This document shows positions 18,621-63,700 of a DNA stretch of 64,000 bases, one piece after another. Each line of letters starts with the position of its first letter. Within the stretch, counting starts at the first letter, position 1. The stretch comes from Monilinia fructicola (lineage: Eukaryota; Ascomycota; Leotiomycetes; Helotiales; Sclerotiniaceae), in the NCBI GenBank assembly GCA_008692225.1, contig VICG01000014.1, positions 1,531,501-1,595,500 of the forward strand. Reading direction: 5' to 3'. The position numbers and the translations under genes are program-made. Below the pieces are notes generated by a model. The model was not told the origin of the DNA, did no database searches, and saw only the letters and a list, made by a program, of their open reading frames with translations.

Positions 18621-19071
18621 CTACAACTTCGCCTTCACCTCCCCCTCGCCCACCTTCGCCTTCTCCAAGATGGGCCCCAACTTCGTCGCCTTCATCACAT
18701 CCCCCTTGACCTTCAACTTGCCGGCCATGAAGAGCCTCTGCGAATTCGCCTGTCCCCGCACCAGCTTGCCGAAATCCTCATCGCTCAACAGGAGCGTGAC
18801 CGTGGGTTTCTCCCCGGGCCCCGTCCCGACCGTGCCGTCTTTCTTGAGGTCGATGTGCCAAGTTGCTGTCTCGCCCGCCTTGTTCTTGAGCGTGAAGGCA
18901 AAGACGGCATTGCCTTGTTTGATAGCCGAGGCGCGGTCTGTGGGGGAGGCGGCGAGGGAGGCGGCGATGGCCTCGAAGGCGGCGGAGGAGGGGAAGGCGT
19001 CTATGGGATTTGTTAGTGGGTGGGAGAGGGGGTGAGCAGGGTAGGAGTGTGCTACCGTTCTTGAGGGACAT
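18621..19071 (-). CDS. SCP2 sterol-binding-domain protein, probably peroxisomal, 131 aa
   Basis: Two exons: 19071-19056 (16 nt, MSLKN) and 19000-18621, joined across a 55-bp intron. The product is a single SCP2 domain (AFPSSAAFEAIAASL near the N-terminus; WHIDLKKDGTVGTG and LLLSDEDFGKLVRGQ in the core; LFMAGKLKVKGDVMKATKLGPIL near the C-terminus). This is the stand-alone form seen in fungal oleate-induced Pox18-type lipid-binding proteins. The C-terminal tripeptide AKL is a peroxisomal targeting signal type 1 variant, which supports import into peroxisomes. The initiating ATG was chosen because it joins by splicing to the conserved domain; the longer unspliced frame upstream lacks conservation. 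Confidence 0.9.
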
Positions 19072-20266
19072 GATTGTAAGTTGCTAAATGCTCTGCTTGG
19101 GTTTGATTTAATATAGTTCTTTGCCGTAGTATCAAACAATTAAACAAATAATTTCGATCTTCTCATAGAATAATAGTTCATTTATCTGTAACAGAGAATA
19201 ATATTGCAAGTAGTGAAGCAGTGAAGCAGTGGGCAGTGGGCAGTGGGCAGTGAAGTAATGGAGTAGCAGAGGAGATACCTATATAAATGAAGTCCGAAAA
19301 CGATCGCACCTGAATGTGATGCGTACTCGGGATTGCATGCATGCATTGCATGTGATAATGGCCGAGGTCCGTCAAGATATACAGCATGGATCCATCCACT
19401 AGTCTTCTTTCGGTAAAATCTGGGGAACCCGTCATGATCTGGGCATGGCCAGATGGTCCGAGAACATAATAAATGGTAGAACTGAGACTTTTGATGAATA
19501 AAAGAAAACTATTTGCTACCTACTTATGATTAGCAAACGGGAGATTGTAACTTATAAGAAGTTGTATTGGATATGAACTATGTAGAAACGAGGTGCTCAT
19601 GCTCGTGTCTAATTTAACCTTATACAAGTACTTCTGAATGTATTCGGAGGTTTCCTCGTCTCCTTTTCGCTTCACTCGGCTGAAAAAGGCGATGATGAAT
19701 TTCAGAATGCTATGTATGCATGGTGATTGTTTGGAAAAGATATCGAAGCCTATTCAGTATCTAGCTGGTTTGAATTCTGACGGGAATGATCATATATATA
19801 ACCTCTATAAATATAAGGGTGCGTTCGGATCGATTTTTAACAACACTGAGCTGGATAAAAATATTATAGCATATCAGGAATGAGATCTAATAATTATGTA
19901 TTTGAGTATATTTGAGAAAGCTAATATGTTCAACAAATATTCGAATAAAACTTATATATTTGAAGTATGTTTTAGACCAGATTAGAGATAATACTCCTAA
20001 AATATATCAGAACGCTAAAAAAATACTCAAGAGGAAAAGGTATCTGTAACAATCATCTTCCTAATCCAATCCAATCCAATTCAGTTCAGACCATTCCCAG
20101 CCATTCCATTCATGATACCATAATGGTAAGACTACCTCCCACATATTTGAACGCCAGTATCCAAAATATATGGGCATCTACAAGATACACAAGTCCCAAC
20201 CGTTCCTCCCCAAAACACCCAGTAAAGGAAGATATACCACCAAGAATATCAAAGAAAGAAGAATAT
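19072..20266. other. Intergenic stretch between the SCP2 gene and facB
   Basis: It carries a GGGCAGT run near 19225-19255 and a solitary end of the GGGTGCGTTCGG transposon family at 19817. No gene is supported. Confidence 0.5.
19817..19840. mobile_element. Solitary terminus of the GGGTGCGTTCGG element family
   Basis: GGGTGCGTTCGGATCG preceded by TAA matches the inverted-repeat ends of the element at 25821-26321. No matching right end was seen within the next few hundred bases, so this is a truncated or diverged copy. Confidence 0.5.
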
Positions 20267-23173
20267 TTAGAATGGATCCATTGGAAGTAGATAATCTTCA
20301 CAAGGCGGCATCTGATCAGGCAAGAACAGCGTGTTTCCACCCAATCCAAGATCACTAATAGATAATTCGTCGCCTGAACTATGGCTCTCACCACTGAAGC
20401 TAAATACGCTCTGTGCAGGTCCAGGGACCGCCGAGGGATCCGGCTGAGTCAGAGACGGTAAAGCATCGAAGGAAAGGTTTGACCAGTGATCGTAATTGGA
20501 ATTTGAAACAGCAGTCTGGTTGGTTTCCGGGAGGTTAGGTGCTGGTCCACCATAAATAGCACTATGCATGTTGGCCTGGCCAGTATCAAAAGAGCTGAGT
20601 ATAAACCCCAATTCGGTTGAAAATTGATTTTCCATTTTCCTGTATATATTTTGAGGCGTATGTGAAATCGGGCCTGGATAAGCTGTACGTGAGATTGATG
20701 GTGAAGATGGTTGTGAAGAAATCGGCGTATTGCTCAAGGACAAATAATCCAAATTCGGGGGTTTTGAACTTGAGTTATATTGAGGTTTTGATAGCGATGA
20801 CAGTTGCGAGAGTGAGTTACGACATTCCCGTTTGGTCGTCGAGAAGTCTGTTCTTGTTCCTTCGTAGGATGACCGCGCCGAGCACGTTTGGTTCTGTGAA
20901 TTGTGGGTTAAAATATTTGGTACTGTGGCTCGTCGAAGTTTCTCTTGTTGTGCTAATATGCCATTCTCACTTATGCTAGCACTGGTTTGCTTATATGGTT
21001 GCGGCTGTACCTTCTTTTGGGGGGCAGACATGGCGGTGGAAGTGCGCAAAAGTGCCGACCTAGTTTTACTATCCATACTTTGACTATCCAAAACTATTAA
21101 GGAAGAAGCAAGTTTCTTGAAGTCTGCAGCACTCGGAGCATTGGACTTTTCCAGGAACCTGATAATAATATTGACCAGCCGTTGATTATCTTGCATCAAC
21201 TTGCCTTCATGCTTAAGATCGAGGCCTTGGTATAGAAGACTAAGGCCACACAAGGTGAGCATGGAGTTTCTATTTAAACAGAAAGAGAATGCCATGCTTC
21301 TCTCCTCGAGAAGCTGTGTAATCTGGATAAGATGCTTGCTGGAATCCGCCAAAGAGATAACGGATGACGATGATTTAGCTCCTAGCGTAGAACCAACAGC
21401 AGGACGGTGAATTAACGACCGGATATAATAATAAGAAAGGGACTGTGATTGGGTTAAAATGAGTTCGAACCCATGTGTCATGGTTTGACTTACCAGTAAA
21501 GCTGATCGACTACCTGTGATATCCGTTGATGGCTTATCTTGTGCAAATGTAAGCTTCAGATGAGCTGGCAATTTATCAGACCAGTCGTCTAATTCCGCCT
21601 CGAGAGTGGTAAGTGATTGCAGAGATAAGTCATGACTTTCAGCTGCGGGATAATTCTGCTCCAACACTTTGGAAAGAATGCGTGAGCAACGGAAGAGAGC
21701 GAGGGAGCTAGAGATTCTAGTAGGTTCCCCTGGAAACATGGGCTGATAACCTTTCTCGGTCACATGTTCATCATCTACATCCGAAGGATACTCCGCATGA
21801 ATGTCATCCTCCTTCAGTAGTTTAGGGAGGCCAAGGAGAGAAGCAGAAAAGCTATGCAAGGTTAGGTTTGGAATACAAGCGCTGGCATGGTACTTACCAA
21901 TCAACGGTATACAAAGTCCAAAAGACCCTCTTCCTCGTCTCCGTGGTCAATGCGCCGAAAGGGAATCTCTTTTGACTTTGATGTAAGCCAAGCCGATGAG
22001 AAAGTCCAACAGCAATTGCTTTATAATGCTGTAAGCGATTATAATCCGCACTTTGAATGCAGTAAATAAGAGCCAAAACCAAACATTGAAGAGTGGAAAT
22101 GGTATGATCCATCACGATAGAATCGAGAGCAGTGCGCCATTGACCTTCGCATGATGAAATTTGTTTCTTGTCAGGGCAAGAGGTGGACGTTCCAGCAATA
22201 GCAAAGACAAGGTGTAATTGTGCCAATTTGTGCTGGTCCTTCAATTGTTCTGGCTTCGACAAATATTCATCATACAGACTTAAGAATTTATGCTTATGTA
22301 TGACGGGAAATAATGGTGCCCATTCTTGAAAAAATACATTCACGCATTTGTCTGAGAAAAGGCGTGGCGGCGCGCATATTTCGGTTGGTGTAAATATAGG
22401 CGATGAGGTCGCATTATTCTGTCGTGTCAAAAAATACTTCGGTGTTCAACCCTGCGAGAGATTTTCCACTCTCCTGCATTCTACGTTTGAAGGAATCTAG
22501 GATCTATTAGCGATTTTAGTGCGTCAATCCCTCATGATGCCATACCAACAAAAGTTCTCCCACTCGACGCTCCCATGAAATATGAGTCTGAATTTTCGCA
22601 TTCTAGCAGCAGTGGCGAAGCTTGGACTCTGAATATATCTTCTTTTGGGGGCGATGGCTCTTTTCGACTTTCGGCAGGAGGTGAAGTCGATGTTGATGGC
22701 GCTGAGGGACTTCGATTTGAGTGCATCTTCGAAAGCATATCAAGTTTCTCCATCCTTCTCGTCAAGCAAATCCTTCAACTCCCTAACCTCCGCCTCTAAT
22801 GAACGAATTCTTTCCTCCAAGGACTCTGTACTGGAAGAACGGGAAGTCAGTATTGGTGTATCAAGGAAAGCATTCCATAGAAAAGGACAAGGCCAGACTG
22901 CATTCGAATATCAAGCATCCCCGGGAAATTGAGCATGGGAGAGTGTGTAGAAGAGAAAAAACACTATACTCACTATCCTCTGGGAAAAGCTCGTCGGCTC
23001 AATTTATCGCTCGTTTTACATTCGAACCCAACATTGGAGCACTGTGAACAGCATGGTCGAATGCCATCACATCGTATCTTTTTACTTCGGCATCGATCGC
23101 AAGCCTGGGCAATCCGACTCTGTGAACTCGACGACCCAACCTTAATTATTTTCATGGGTAAAATTCCAGGCAT
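20267..23173 (-). CDS. facB: Zn2Cys6 transcription activator of the FacB/Cat8 family
   Basis: Five exons: 23173-22974, 22830-22546, 22496-21898, 21851-21494 and 21442-20267. The N-terminus [13 protein letters not shown] leads into the cluster [21 protein letters not shown] and then [20 protein letters not shown], a coiled-coil dimer region. This order and wording match FacB/Cat8, which activates acetate utilisation and gluconeogenesis genes. A fungal_trans domain follows ([41 protein letters not shown]), then a long polar tail likely to carry the activation region. Two single-base surplus sites break the frame: the G pair at 22750-22751 and the A run 22429-22434 (plus strand). Removing one base at each gives 871 aa, a normal FacB length. 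The fourth intron, 21443-21493, is 51 bp and open in frame. Confidence 0.88.
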
Positions 23174-38301: not shown

Positions 38302-38969
38302 TTTGCTTGAAGGTTTTTGGAGGGGTATTGGTGTGGGGTTTATTACTTTTGTATAACAGTTATGGAATATAATTATTTGAAGTTCACTAGAACTAATAGA
38401 TGGATGGATACGTGAAACCTGGAACACTCATAACGAGACAATTCTTATTCTACCTAATAAGACCTCGAGAAACCCTTTTTCAGATGGCAATTCTTCCAAC
38501 GATAATGTCCCCGTGCGGAAATTTACAAGAAGAGTTTCAAGCGTTACTTGTGTATATATTTGACTTATAGTAACGAGATTCAAGTCTGCTTATATTAGAG
38601 ATTTCGAATCAATGGCATGGCATGTCTTAATTTCATATATTAATAATTATTTGATAGTCACGTGAACGATCAACGATAAACAAATCATTGCACAGTCGTA
38701 AAGTAACAATAAACATCACGTATTATTTGAATACCATTTATGATCGTTCTATGAGACATTCTTAACTTGTCCCTCCCTAATGATTTCTCCACCAAATCGA
38801 GTCTCAGGGACTTTTCCACTTAACCCAGCCCAAGTAATCAATCAACCACCCTTCCCATGGTCTTCATCCGTCCTCCAACCATCACAACATATACAAAACA
38901 CCAAACCGAACAAAGTAATCTCTTCTTCACAATTCTGACAAGCCAAGAATTTGCAATGAAAAGGAAGTC
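38302..38969. other. Intergenic region between translin and U2 snRNA
   Basis: Holds the translin promoter and the U2 3' flank. No gene seen. The minus-strand frame over 38842-39054 is a shadow across the U2 gene. Confidence 0.5.
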
Positions 38970-39223
38970 TTCGCTTCACCTGGAGGCAGTGTAATACCAG
39001 GGAAACTGTGGGAATGATCATGCGCAAGCACAGCGGACCAATCCCGAAGGACAAAAATAAGTATAATCAATGTGACCGTCTATGACGATCTTTCAGAGAT
39101 TAAACTGAAAAGAACAGATACTACACTTGATCTAAGCCTGTTGAGAGAAGTTTTGTTAGTAAAAGATATCAATGAAGAGAAAGTCAAATGTAGGGTGTAA
39201 CTTACCAATAGGCAAAGAGAGCT
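38970..39223 (-). ncRNA. U2 spliceosomal snRNA, interrupted by an mRNA-type intron
   Basis: Reading leftward, a 5' exon with CTCTTTGCCTATTG is followed, after an intron (39205-39138), by GCTTAGATCAAGTGTAGTAT and CTGTTCTTTTCAGTTTAATC. This is the near-invariant U2 5' region, including GTAGTA, which pairs with intron branch sites. Further on are an Sm-like site (ATTTTTG) and the stem-loop IV hallmark CCTGGTATTACACTGCCTCC, which binds U2A'/U2B''. Spliced length is about 186 nt with the ends placed at 39223 and 38970 (both approximate), matching known U2. The intron lies inside stem-loop I, just after the loop, so unspliced RNA could not form that hairpin normally. Confidence 0.95.
39138..39205 (-). 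other. 68-bp spliceosomal intron inside the U2 snRNA gene
   Basis: It begins GTAAGTT, has the perfect branch motif TACTAAC about 18 nt before the 3' end, and ends CTCTCAACAG. Removing it joins TATTG to GCTTAGATC and restores the conserved U2 5' hairpin (GCC-UAUU-GGC). mRNA-type introns in snRNA genes are known in a few fungi (U6 of fission yeast; U2 of the basidiomycete yeast Rhodotorula hasegawae), but are rare. Confidence 0.9.
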
Positions 39224-39257: not shown

Positions 39258-39265
39258 CTTATATA
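39258..39265 (-). promoter_or_regulatory. TATA box for the U2 snRNA gene
   Basis: TATATAAG on the minus strand lies about 35 nt upstream of the inferred U2 5' end, as expected for a polymerase II core promoter. Confidence 0.6.
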
Positions 39266-41213
39266 GATATTGGAAGCGTCCGTGCGCGCTAAGAATGAGG
39301 GCCAGTTGGTGCAAACTTATTTGATAAAGGAGCAAACGTGTCAAACTATCCTGACCGCTAGTTCTGCCGTAGTCCGTATAATGCTCAAAATTGTACAACT
39401 ACAATCACCTGGGCATCCATCATACACCAAAAGTTATGCTCAAGAAAATTATACTTGAAGAAATTATGCTCGCAGGAAAAAATCAATAATTACTCTGTAG
39501 AAGGAGTTTCATAAATTTATACATTTGCATTCAACACCTGTCATAGCCCTTCAACTGCCTACCTTATGTAGTAAATTTACTTACATAATCATAGAACGAT
39601 AAATCTCAACCACCATCTTATCCTAGTATTCCAATCCGGCATATCTATTGAGTGCGCTATTGAAGTAGATGTAGAAGCTAAGATATTGATGAATTTGCAT
39701 CTCTAAACTACAAGTAAACAATAATTATATGATTATTTTCGAAATACTCTTTAGAACTATTCTATCCTTGATTCCAAGTAAAAGTTCTTCCTTAATATTA
39801 TACATCAAAAAAATCTACCATTATCCATCTCTCTCATTGGATCTCACGTACGCAATAAAAAGTATACAATTACTGTAGTTCCCCTTCCCCTCGAGCTATT
39901 CCAAATCGCCTATTATTTATTCGGAAGAGCCTCCACTGGTGCTCTCGTATATAGCCCCTAGACTTACCCGAGGCTCCTACTAAATACACCATTGATGACC
40001 TCGCTAAGGCGGTGGTTAGAACTGAATACAACAGGTGCGGCCATCGGACTTGTATCATCTTACGATTGTAGCTCTCATAACAGCTCAACCTTCTCTACAC
40101 CTACAACAGTAATCGCCGTTCGTGGTGACCGCACGTAGGGAGAGATCTAGATTCCCAGGGAAAGTTCCTACCTTTAAAATTGCTCCGCAAAGCTCAGGTC
40201 CCCCGTCCCAGGATATATCGAGATTAACGTCGCCATTGCTATCCTCGAATCTCTCGAGTCCTGGTCAGCACTAAAATTGAAGATAGACTCTTCGATCGAT
40301 GGCGTGGCTTCAGCTTCAATCTCTACTATCATTACAGTCAGATTCAACTTTCTCCCGCGGAATCGCTTCGTTCTTCAACTCGATGATATACCTCAATAGC
40401 GACAGGGTGCAACAGTTTTTTAGTTAGATTATAGGAGTGGATGCGCAAATGCATCGGTAATCTACGGTATTTATAGGTTTGAAGTTGGGTTCTAGAGACT
40501 ATGGTGCTTATAGAAAATATGAGGGTACCAAGGTAGAGGAGTGGTGGAATATCTTTATCTGCGGTCCTTCTTGGCTAATAAAATGGCTGTCTTCCTGTAT
40601 ATGGAGGATGTCGTGCATTATATATGGTAAATTCTATTGTCTATTCTATATAGCTTAACCTTCTTCATAGCTACAAGCAGCCCCTTTCACCATGTATTCT
40701 ACGGAGCCATACAAGCTACTAGTAGCATAAAAGCCAAATGTTGGGCTAGATCTTCATAGAAGATCAACTGCGTAGATGGTTCAATTGAGTTGATAATGGA
40801 GAGAAGACAGTTAATGATTGAAGCACTTGATTACACTTTTAATGGATGAACAAGTTCAACTCGATACCACCACGTACTATCTCCATAAAAGAAGTATAGT
40901 CTATCTCCATATATCAATCATCTTTTAGTTGGTCCCTTGCATCCAGCCATATATATCACGAGCTGAAGGCCTCATACTACCTACGTCTCGATCGTTAGAT
41001 CTATAGGTAAGTTATACAACCAAATTCTGAAAACCTGAATTCAGATTGGACAACGAAATTATCAAAAGCACATCAGATAATCAAATTTCGAGCTCAACTT
41101 GAGAGATTCAACGTTGACTTCAAATCTAGCCATTCAGATCCAAATTAGACAAAGAAGGATTAGATACAAGTCGACCAATCAAAAAGCAATATGTACTGGT
41201 CCTGGTGCACTAA
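39266..41213. other. AT-rich, gene-free stretch, probably repeat-derived
   Basis: Frames are short and unsupported. The texture (long AT-rich sequence with no conserved frame) resembles degraded retroelement sequence, but no reverse transcriptase or integrase motif was recognised. Confidence 0.45.
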
Positions 41214-49117: not shown

Positions 49118-50576
49118 TTAGTATAATTTCTTCAATGTAAAAGGAACAGAAGATATACGCACATCATTATGACCAACAGAAACAATAGCATCTTCTGAAA
49201 CCCTTACACCACCAGCTCCTTCAACATAAGCCAAAGGAGCATCTCCCATGACCTTCCTTGCGCATTCTGCGACTGTGGTATTTTTCTTCACCAATACACA
49301 ATCTCTAAACACTTTCTCACTTCCGGATCCACCATTTCCTGCTATCAGACTTCCTACGTTCCTTACCGGGAACACTGGTACTAGACCTAACAATTCTGCT
49401 GCTCGAGAAAGTACTTGGACTACTCCCGTGCTTCCGAATCTGTAAAGAACCATGTCTTTCAAATTTTCAATTCTTGTTTTGAGCTTCTCATCCAGTTCCT
49501 TCAAACCCCCACCAGTTTCATCACCATCGGCGATTAGATCCTCTCTCGTATCCACAAACTCACTCCCCTCCGTATACTTCACAAACCCTTGCTTGGCTAG
49601 CTTTCTCAGAAAAACTTCCGACACAGCACTACACAGAACAATACTCTTCGGATCCTGCATCTTCGCAATCTTGCTAATATTCTTATCCGCATCCGCATGA
49701 TCGATCTTGTTCAGCGCAATAACCGTGGGGAATTTCTCATCCGTAAACGCATTTACGACCATATCAATCGTTTCATCAGACCAATGTTCCAATGGTTCCT
49801 TCAACGCCAATTTGTCCAACGTTCGCGCAACCACGGCACTTGTACTTCCATATCCAGAAAATTGTCCCTGTAATGTCTCAACAGCCGTAGCTTTCACAGC
49901 TACATGTCGTCGTTTTATCGAACCCCATTTTTGCATCAAGTTCCCTCGAATCCACGCTACGATCTCCGAGCGCAACCATACAATATCATAACTAGGATCA
50001 TAACCTCTGGTTGCTTTTCCCTCTGCATCAGTCGTGCCACTTACATCCACGACATGAATAAGCGCATCTGCATGTCGTAAATCGTCGAGAAACTTATTTC
50101 CAAGACCTTTTCCTTCGTGGGCGCCTGGGACGAGACCGGCTACATCAAGTAATTCGATAGGAACAGAGCGACGGCCATCGATACAGGATCCATAGTTGGG
50201 TTTGCAGCGTGATTGGAGATTATAACGGGCGCAGGCACAATCGATTTGGAGGTAGCCAATTGCGCGTTGAGGGTCGATGGTTGTGAATCTGGGAATGGCT
50301 CAGCATTTGGTCTTTCTTGCTTTACTTTTGTGCGATCTCCATAGCTTCTTATCCGTCATGGTGGAAGGGCGCGCATGTAATTGACTGGGCTTGTGCTTAC
50401 GGGAAGTTGCCTACATGAGGATGTAAGTAAATGGAGGGGTAGGCTAGAATGGGATGGGATGGCATTGAGAGTATTCACGCACCGACTTTTGATGTAGCAT
50501 CTGTAAGACTGTTCAGTGTTGTACTCTTCCCTGAAGAGGGTTTGCCTACGAGGCCGATCAGAGGATCTCGTGGCAT
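49118..50576 (-). CDS. Obg/YchF-class GTPase of the Ygr210 type, 424 aa, with a 10-nt microexon
   Basis: Exons 50576-50483, 50410-50401 (10 nt) and 50288-49118 total 1275 nt in frame. The P-loop is [10 protein letters not shown] near residue 10. Switch I region: [18 protein letters not shown]3: [25 protein letters not shown]4: ALNKID, the standard NKxD guanine-specificity motif rather than the altered form of ATP-preferring OLA1. A TGS-like C-terminal region ends [18 protein letters not shown]. The microexon contributes the NFP of the switch region and is required to keep the frame. These GTPases are ribosome-associated; the cellular role of the Ygr210 branch is poorly defined. Confidence 0.92.
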
Positions 50577-60748: not shown

Positions 60749-63700
60749 TCAGCTATTGTTGACCTTGTTATCCTCCAAACACTTGGCCAGTTCTTCCGCT
60801 AATCCAGTCTCCTTGAGTTGGAGAACCCAGGTTTGTAAGCCCTTTCCATCATCACCAACTGTCATAAGCTTGATGGTCTTGCCACTAGCTTCATATTTGA
60901 CTTGAGAAAGAAGTGACCTGTTGAGTATAATGGAGCCAGAGGGGTCACTTCGCAAAACAATTCGAGTAGCCTTCGTCTCTTTATGGCGAAGAACTTTCAA
61001 TGGACCAACCCCTTTGGTGTCCCATGGACTGGATTTTTTGTCGCCTTCTTCATTTGGGCAGAACTTTAAGGCTCTAGCTCGAACAGAGTGAACAACATCC
61101 TCATCTTCTTCACCAGGATTAGATTCTAAGAGGTTCACTTGGTCATGAACTTTTTCGGGATCATTATCATCAGCGTCAGTGGCACCATCGGTGGTCGCAC
61201 CTGGTGAAGTAGCTCGAGAAGTATTTGCGGAAGCTGCTACGGACGGGAAGAGAGAGGATGTAGCAGATGCCGGTCCACCGAACTGAAATCCTGTGGTTGT
61301 GCTAGGCCCACTAGAGAGAGCAGGAGTCGGAGTTCCAGAATTGCCAAACAATCCACCGAAAGAGTTGGTTGCTGGCTTTGCTGGACTAGCACCAGTGATG
61401 TTGAATGTAGGTGCAGAAGATTGAGCACTACCGAATTTGATTGGCGTATCTGGTTTCCAGGTTTTGTCTGCTGAAGTGCCAGAAGATGCACCAAAAGAGC
61501 TACCGAATATATTTGTAGTAGATTGGGATGCCGAACTCTCTTTATCTTCTGAAACAGGTTCTCTAGTCATACGGCTGAGAAGACTTCCACCATTACCAGG
61601 AGTTGGTGTAGTTGCACCAGAGCTAGAAATCGAACCAAACAAATTGAGCTTTGGCGGCTCAGTGACTGCTTTTTTTGGAGGCAATTTCTGAGCCCGCCTC
61701 GTCTACAGGGGTGCTTGGAGTATCATTGCTTGTGGTTGGTTTGTAGCTCGGATCCTTCTTTTCATCTTCACCATCAGAGCCATTATCAGAACTCTCATCA
61801 TCCCCATCATTTTGGTTATTCGAGTCCGCATCGGAAAGATGGGCAAATGGATTGCCAGCAAATGAAGGTGTTTTTGCCGGAGCATTTGCAGTACCATCAA
61901 GAACAGATCCAGTGCCAGAGAACAAGCTAGGAGTAGATGTTCTCGAGACGTTGGCTGAACTGAAAATATTTTCAGCAGCTCCGGTAGCAGGCTTAGTTTG
62001 TCCGAATAATGATGTAGAAGGAGTGGTGGCAACTGGCGCAAATATGTTTGTAGTTGCGGGCTTTGCAGTTTGTTCCGGTCCTTTGGACTTTGCGGATTCA
62101 GTAGGCTTGACGAGGAAAGATGGAGCCTTGCCCTTTGCAAGCTCAGCCAATTCTTTAAGCTCCGCGGCTCTTTTCTTCTTGTAGTTAGCTTCCCACTCAG
62201 CTTCGTCATCATCCTCGGAATCAAAATCCTCATCCTTAGCCTTCTGCATCAATTTCTTTTCATTTTCTTCTGCACTATCGGCGGCCTGTTTACCAAATTG
62301 GGCCATAAAATTAGCGGGTCCACTTCCGAAGGATGGTGGCTTGATGCCGCCAGTAGGAGCACCGGCAAAGGTTGGTGGCTTAATACCACCAGTAGGAGCA
62401 CCAGTGAATGAAGGTGGCTTAGCTGGGGAGGTGGTGGGTGTAGTGGAGGTAGGTGAGAATTTTAAAGACTGGGGGTTTTTTTGGCGTTGTAGAGGTTGCG
62501 GTGGTATTAGGCTTGATGGGAGAAGCACCTGGCAATGTTCCGAATGGATTGGAGAGAGGTTTCTCTGTTGAGGCCGACGAAGCTTCCTTAGCAGCCCCAG
62601 GTAATGCCCGAGTCTTTCTATCTGGACTGGCCGATCTTGATGGTTTCTCTGGACTATCCAAAATATTCTTGAACATATTAGAAGTGCTTGAACTAGAGCC
62701 ATTGACTGTTCTCTTGTTGCTGTTTTTGCTATCTTCAATTCCTTCAGGGTCGAGTTGAGTCAAATAAACATCAGGCTTTCTCTTCCTGCTGCTGCCACCA
62801 CTTACGACTTCTTCGTCGTGACCCGATTGCCCAGGCTTTCTTTTTTTATTGCCACCATCGTCTTCGTCGCCTATTTCTATTTGAGGATCACTCCTTCTCT
62901 TCTTATTCGAATTTGATTCTGGGGCTGCACTTCTGGAGGATGATTTGCTTGGACTGGTAGAACGACGAGACTGGGATTTTGATGCTTTGAATACCGAGTT
63001 GCCATTGAGCTGAGACTCAGACTCATTTGTCGCACGTGAGCGTTTTTCTGGGCTCTGAACACGATTTGAGCGCGATCTGTCTGATCGACTTCGCTTCTGA
63101 GGACTCATGTTTTTTGGTTCTCATCATTCTCGAATTCTGTTTCTGCCCTGCCTCGCTTGTTGGAGATATAATCAATCTTGTACTCTGCAAGAATTGATTT
63201 CTTTTTAGCTTCCATCCATGCCAATCCCTTGGAAGGATCTGCGCCAGGTGGTAAATGATGGAAGTAAGCTGCAATAGCTCTCTGCACAGATGTGATGCGA
63301 AAAAGTGCGTAGAATTCATTTTTTCTCTTTGGATCTATGCTCTGAGGCATATTTGCATCCATCTCCGTGACTGTGGGCTCAGAAATTCGGAACTCTAAGT
63401 TGGTAGATCTACCAGAGGTAGTTGCTCTCGTGACAGGACCTGGTGATTGTACACTGAGAGCCAGTGAATCAGAACTGGTGCCGTTACTTGTTGTCCCGTT
63501 TAAGGCTTGGGCATCTTGGGTTAAAGAAGAGAAACCAACAAGCGCGTTGCTTGAAGAAGGCTGTGCTGCATCTGCAGGTGTATCGATTGGTTTGAAAGAA
63601 GGGGCCTTATTGTAATCAGTCACCTCAGTATTTCCGCGGGTTTTGAACGGAGATCCAGTTTGATTGTTAGATGGAGAAGAGAACTTCGACGGGTCAGCTT

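Follow-up and report, generated by a model that had tools for sequence, protein, structure and literature searches.

A U2 snRNA gene of Monilinia fructicola with a probable mRNA-type intron in stem I

Rhodotorula hasegawae is a basidiomycete yeast. Its U2 snRNA gene is reported to contain an mRNA-type intron (Takahashi et al. 1993, as cited in PMC2586383). Introns have also been described in fungal U6 snRNA genes (Tani and Ohshima 1989; Canzler et al. 2016), and the passages on introns in PMC5832005 characterize U3 and U6 as often interrupted in fungi, place the U3 introns in the first stem-loop with a GTRWGT donor and an RCTRAC branch site, and report split and unsplit U3 copies side by side in eight genomes, including those of Botrytis cinerea and Sclerotinia sclerotiorum. 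Among the matches listed in the open-licence literature, none indicates an ascomycete U2 intron in its title or abstract. The preliminary description of the locus analyzed here had considered mRNA-type introns in snRNA genes to be known from very few fungi, a view that is somewhat overstated given the R. hasegawae U2 gene reported in 1993 and the frequent interruption of U3 and U6 recounted in PMC5832005; its further remark that it knew of no well-described U2 case in a filamentous ascomycete is uncontradicted among the listed open-licence matches.

The DNA examined is a 64-kb stretch (referred to as the window) of the genome of Monilinia fructicola, a fungus of the brown-rot type. One gene of the window is 99% identical to the entry P0002 and, among named records, comes nearest to Monilinia vaccinii-corymbosi (73% identity), followed by Stromatinia cepivora, Botrytis and Sclerotinia; a search of the assembly for 5.8S rRNA had no match. 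The window contains on its minus strand an apparently split U2 snRNA gene, denoted U2a; a paralogue elsewhere in the genome (L002) is denoted U2b. With a probability of about 0.92, we consider U2a to be a true U2 gene of the Pol II type whose stem I is split by an ordinary spliceosomal intron, and which would be spliced to give standard U2.

The split U2 gene and its intron

The Rfam model of U2 (RF00004) was run on the unspliced form and matched U2a at positions 39154-38965 of the minus strand with 134.5 bits (gathering threshold, 46). In the Rfam scan, this was the sole match at gathering threshold in the whole window. All elements named in the preliminary description were found where it had placed them, on the minus strand. 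The parts of the gene are as follows:

39206 to 39223, minus strand: U2 exon 1, 18 nt, covering stem I from its 5' half through the loop
39138 to 39205, minus strand: mRNA-type intron, GT-AG, 68 nt (GTAAGT...TACTAAC...CAG)
39200 to 39205, minus strand: 5' splice site GTAAGT, from sequence, matching GTRWGT of fungal U3 introns
39155 to 39161, minus strand: branch site TACTAAC with the branch A at 39156, from sequence, matching RCTRAC of fungal U3 introns
39138 to 39140, minus strand: 3' splice site CAG, from sequence
38967 to 39137, minus strand: U2 exon 2, the body of the U2 snRNA (3' end approximate), from the RF00004 match of 134.5 bits
39119 to 39124, minus strand: branch-site recognition block GTAGTA, from sequence and the RF00004 match
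39052 to 39058, minus strand: Sm-site-like ATTTTTG, from sequence; U2b has the same letters
38979 to 39001, minus strand: stem-loop IV, CCTGGTATTACACTGCCTCCAGG, from sequence, RF00004 and folding

The GTAGTA block, the Sm-like site and stems I, IIa, IIb, III and IV are present in U2a, stem I only after excision of the intron. The GTAGTA block, which is the same in all five rows of the U2 alignment, is complementary to the TACTAAC of the intron. The GT-AG ends, the branch site, a length typical of fungi and a branch A located 18 nt upstream of the last intron base are those of an mRNA-type intron. The strict signature GTAAGT-TACTAAC-CAG occurs once on the two strands of the window, at U2a, compared with a mean of 0.03 and a maximum of 1 in 30 dinucleotide shuffles. 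Looser intron signatures show little or no excess in the window (2 versus 0.67 and 25 versus 23.4 in shuffles), which puts the signature by itself behind the restored structure as evidence.

The restored stem I is indeed stronger evidence of an intron than the splice signature. Once the intron is removed, the 5' end of U2a becomes AGCTCTCTTTGCCTATTGGCTTAGATC, and exon 1 completes stem I by pairing with exon 2, with a GCC/GGC core and a folding energy of -7.7 kcal/mol (z = -3.51 relative to mononucleotide shuffles). In an alignment to two records (L010 and L013), spliced U2a matches their U2 RNAs through stem I. The spliced form measures 189 nt with the ends adopted here and 186 nt with those of the preliminary description, which had given about 186 nt. 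The core of that description, a canonical mRNA-type intron splitting a U2 gene, is well supported by the sequence signals, the Rfam match and the restored stem I. Judged by these features, U2a is a real U2 gene carrying a standard intron, and the intron is very probably spliced out of the RNA.

Several ideas on the origin and role of the intron were examined and rejected. An introner-like or repeat origin found no support in a DNA search of the genome (E up to 10), in which nothing nearly identical to the intron turned up at a second place; such a search would miss diverged copies, because the same search with U2a exon 2 returned only exon 2 itself and missed U2b. Tandem duplication of the U2a leader was dropped given that the intron aligns with the 80 nt before the 5' splice site no better than shuffles do (1220/2000). 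A regulatory hairpin, UUUGCC/GGUAAG, that would mask the 5' splice site folds at -5.1 kcal/mol and proved too weak, with a z of -1.55 relative to shuffles.

Eukaryotic-type U2 sequences were also observed inside GTDB bacterial genome bins (L010, L011, L012 and L013). In a collection of genome contigs, the long exact U2 pattern had no match, and the short pattern matched 4 stretches on 3 contigs, in bacterial MAG records; the exact U2 patterns had no match in a collection of viral contigs. The U2 sequences in bacterial MAG records are probably eukaryotic contamination. The window itself also contains ordinary protein genes on the minus strand, encoding an SCP2 protein (18621-19139), an acu-15/Cat8-like transcription factor (20267-23173), a YGR210-like GTPase (49118-50299) and a RanBP1-domain protein (60749-61702).

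Promoter and 3' signals among the small RNA genes

The genome searched comprises 44,028,109 bases in 20 contigs. Apart from U2, the spliceosomal RNA loci found are three of U1 (one that clears the Rfam cut-off and two that fall short of it) and one each of U4, U5 and U6, and those of U1, U4 and U5 match their models end to end. The three U1 loci (L005, L006 and L007) have identical first bases and differing stems. Inspection by eye of the U6 locus (L003, C3:2172348-2172450, minus strand, with its upstream sequence) reveals a 20-nt exon followed by a 53-nt GTAAGT...ACTAAC...TAG stretch and then TGGTCAATTTGAAACGATACAGAG. Both loci identified as U3 by Rfam matches (L015, C11:888099-888356; L016, C13:1892528-1892788), again by eye, are interrupted by GTGAGT...TAG stretches not far from the 5' end. 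Genes of three small RNA classes (U2, U6 and U3) hence look split in this genome, all near the 5' end.

The signals that surround U2a are as follows:

39299 to 39315, minus strand: upstream element resembling an snRNA promoter element, TTTGCACCAACTGGCCC, scoring 14/15 against that of U1b and located at -90 from exon 1
39259 to 39265, minus strand: TATA box TATATAA, 42 nt before exon 1
38954 to 38962, minus strand: 3' box, TTTTCATTG, of the TTTTCRTTG pattern

All seven U1, U2, U4 and U5 loci have TATAWA at -30 to -53 from the presumed start (-42 at U2a; for U2b, the start is the one chosen that puts TATA at -47). An upstream element resembling TGCACCAACTAGCCC, scored with a pattern drawn from U1b, reaches at least 13/15 at four of the seven loci (U1a, U1b, U4 and U2a), with scores of 11 at U5, 10 at U2b and 8 at U1c. 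TTTTCRTTG follows five of the seven (the exceptions being U1b and U5) and occurs once on the two strands of the window. Boxes like TTTTCATTG were observed just 3' of U1a, U1c, U2a, U2b, U4 and both U3 loci, and this shared box is possibly a signal for 3'-end formation.

When up to 2 mismatches are allowed, TTTGCACCAANNRGCCC is found at 128 places in the genome compared with 75 for the reversed-pattern control and therefore is not specific by itself. The sole site with zero mismatches is that of U2a, the pattern having been devised with U2a in view. At most one mismatch is found at 12 sites, 4 of which belong to U2a, U1a, U1b and U4; the 7 examined among the other 8 had no Rfam match at gathering threshold, and among these 7, a TATA box is present at 1 and the 3' box at none. 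U2a follows the snRNA-gene pattern of this genome, with an upstream element, a TATA box and a 3' box in common with U1 and U4, and a pyrimidine run precedes its exon 1, just as one precedes the starts of U1 and U4. Because snRNA signals bracket the split gene, transcription should begin before exon 1; going by these signals, U2a would be a gene of the Pol II type.

A second U2 gene and the competing explanations

The exact U2 core 14-mer TGTAGTATCTGTTC occurs at only two sites in the genome, U2a and U2b (reversed-pattern control, 0). The second gene is located as follows:

L002 1501 to 1695 (C4:1557598-1557792), minus strand: U2b, a diverged, uninterrupted U2, 71.9 bits

U2b has no intron at the place of the U2a intron, retains the GTAGTA block, the ATTTTTG Sm-like site and an intact stem IV, and comes with a TATA box and a 3' box (TTTTCGTTG) of its own. 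In stems IIa and IIb, all 13 pairs of the model register are formed by U2a and 11 by U2b; between the two genes, 5 of these pairs differ on both sides and are still paired, 1 differs on one side and is paired, 5 are the same, and 2 are broken in U2b. With a start 47 nt after the beginning of TATA, the 5' end of U2b folds at -7.1 kcal/mol (z = -2.07) into a stem I that is longer than that of U2a and unlike it, and a 5' end that is 13 nt shorter, closer to the usual U2 length, yields no stem I. Stem I of U2b seems to have been remodelled, and on this comparison of two sequences only, U2b can be read as a diverged but constrained U2.

The U2a intron and the U2b leader share CTTCTCTCA beside GCTTAGATC, and their local alignment score of 16 was reached in 30 of 2000 dinucleotide shuffles (in 7 of 2000 with the 3' ends anchored), a likeness that raises the prospect of homology, with either the intron derived from U2 leader DNA or the U2b leader a relic of this intron. 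However, the likeness had been spotted before its testing; the leader of the unrelated U1a gene scores 17 (15/2000); a score of 16 is reached by 6 of 877 pyrimidine-rich windows aligned with the intron and by 19 of 935 aligned with the U2b leader; and the leader of U2a itself scores 10, no better than shuffles (1220/2000). The homology is suggestive, yet the U1a leader does equally well, and we rejected this origin as improbable.

The preliminary description, which had not seen U2b, had stated that an uninterrupted second U2 gene supplying all U2, with the split copy silent, would refute its proposal. A second, uninterrupted gene does exist in the genome, and its TATA box, TTTTCGTTG box, GTAGTA, ATTTTTG and stem IV, together with the lack of an intron, are what would be expected if U2b supplied all U2 and U2a were a decaying copy. 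We regard such decay as improbable, since the covariance score of U2a is far higher than that of U2b (134.5 versus 71.9 bits), stems IIa and IIb keep all 13 model pairs in U2a versus 11 in U2b, the upstream element scores 14/15 versus 10/15 (by the pattern from U1b), and the splice signals of U2a show no decay. Nothing found in these comparisons points to silence of U2a.

The intron tail AAAACTTCTCTCAACAG resembles the 5' end of U2, so that a start inside the intron can formally be proposed, and the covariance model indeed places this tail (AAAACTTCTCTCAACAGGC) at positions 1-19, with two deletions. That U2a is uninterrupted and transcribed from inside the supposed intron, its RNA beginning with AAAACTTCTCTCAACAGGC, is the least probable explanation, given that the deletions take two positions out of the stem I core, the tail forms no stem (0.0 kcal/mol), the TATA box would be about 111 nt off versus 30-53 nt at the 7 snRNA loci, and it would be by chance that exon 1 completes the 5' end of a standard U2. 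A search with an uninterrupted model can thus misplace the 5' end of a split U2 gene.

Proposed processing and relation to known systems

If U2a is a Pol II-type gene with an intron in stem I, a capped precursor would begin at about 39223, the spliceosome would excise 39205-39138, and the joined exons would fold stem I to give standard U2 of about 189 nt. This splicing would use a U2 snRNP that holds either the mature U2a product or U2b. Because the intron is inside U2a, each new U2 from this gene would need a working U2 snRNP; with the intron-free U2b in the genome, a dependence of all U2 on splicing becomes less likely. We infer expression of U2b, with U2a as the main source of U2. An RNA of the splicing machinery whose own production needs splicing forms a closed loop, which makes self-dependence of the spliceosome testable, and one split plus one unsplit U2 gene constitute a natural set-up for this purpose. 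A more speculative proposal, which we hold to be rather unlikely, is an autocatalytic circuit in which standard U2 would require spliceosomes that already hold U2 (along with spliced U6), and U2b, with its remodelled stem I, would act as a starter or as a specialized second U2.

The catalytic core contains a pairing of G21-C22-U23 of yeast U2 with the AGC triad of U6. The position of the U2a intron, which we take to be between yeast U2 nucleotides 20 and 21, would presumably lie exactly at the 5' boundary of the U2 nucleotides engaged with the catalytic triad of U6. Such a position would be in keeping with an origin by reverse splicing at the spliceosome's active site, although it is one position and no test. 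An intron next to the U2/U6 catalytic contact bears on the old proposal that snRNA introns originated by reverse splicing.

U6 is a Pol III product. U2a resembles the reported fungal U6 introns as a spliceosomal RNA whose precursor needs the spliceosome, and it differs from fungal U6 in bearing signals common to U1 and U4. The likeness to fungal U3 lies in a small structured RNA with an intron in its first stem-loop and with the same donor, branch and acceptor consensus, and the donor, branch site, acceptor and 18-nt branch-to-end distance of U2a are within the fungal U3 introns reported in the relevant passages of PMC5832005. U3 acts outside the spliceosome, so that no self-dependence arises, unlike with U2. 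Both U3 genes look split in M. fructicola, whereas split and unsplit copies are mixed in Botrytis cinerea and Sclerotinia sclerotiorum, as given in PMC5832005. The U2 gene of R. hasegawae, as reported, and U2a are both broken by a pre-mRNA-type intron; the difference is that the host of U2a is an ascomycete, of the Sclerotiniaceae. U2a is best read as an ascomycete addition to the known introns of snRNA genes, and what is new beside the known U2 intron is a second, intron-free, diverged U2 gene in the same genome.
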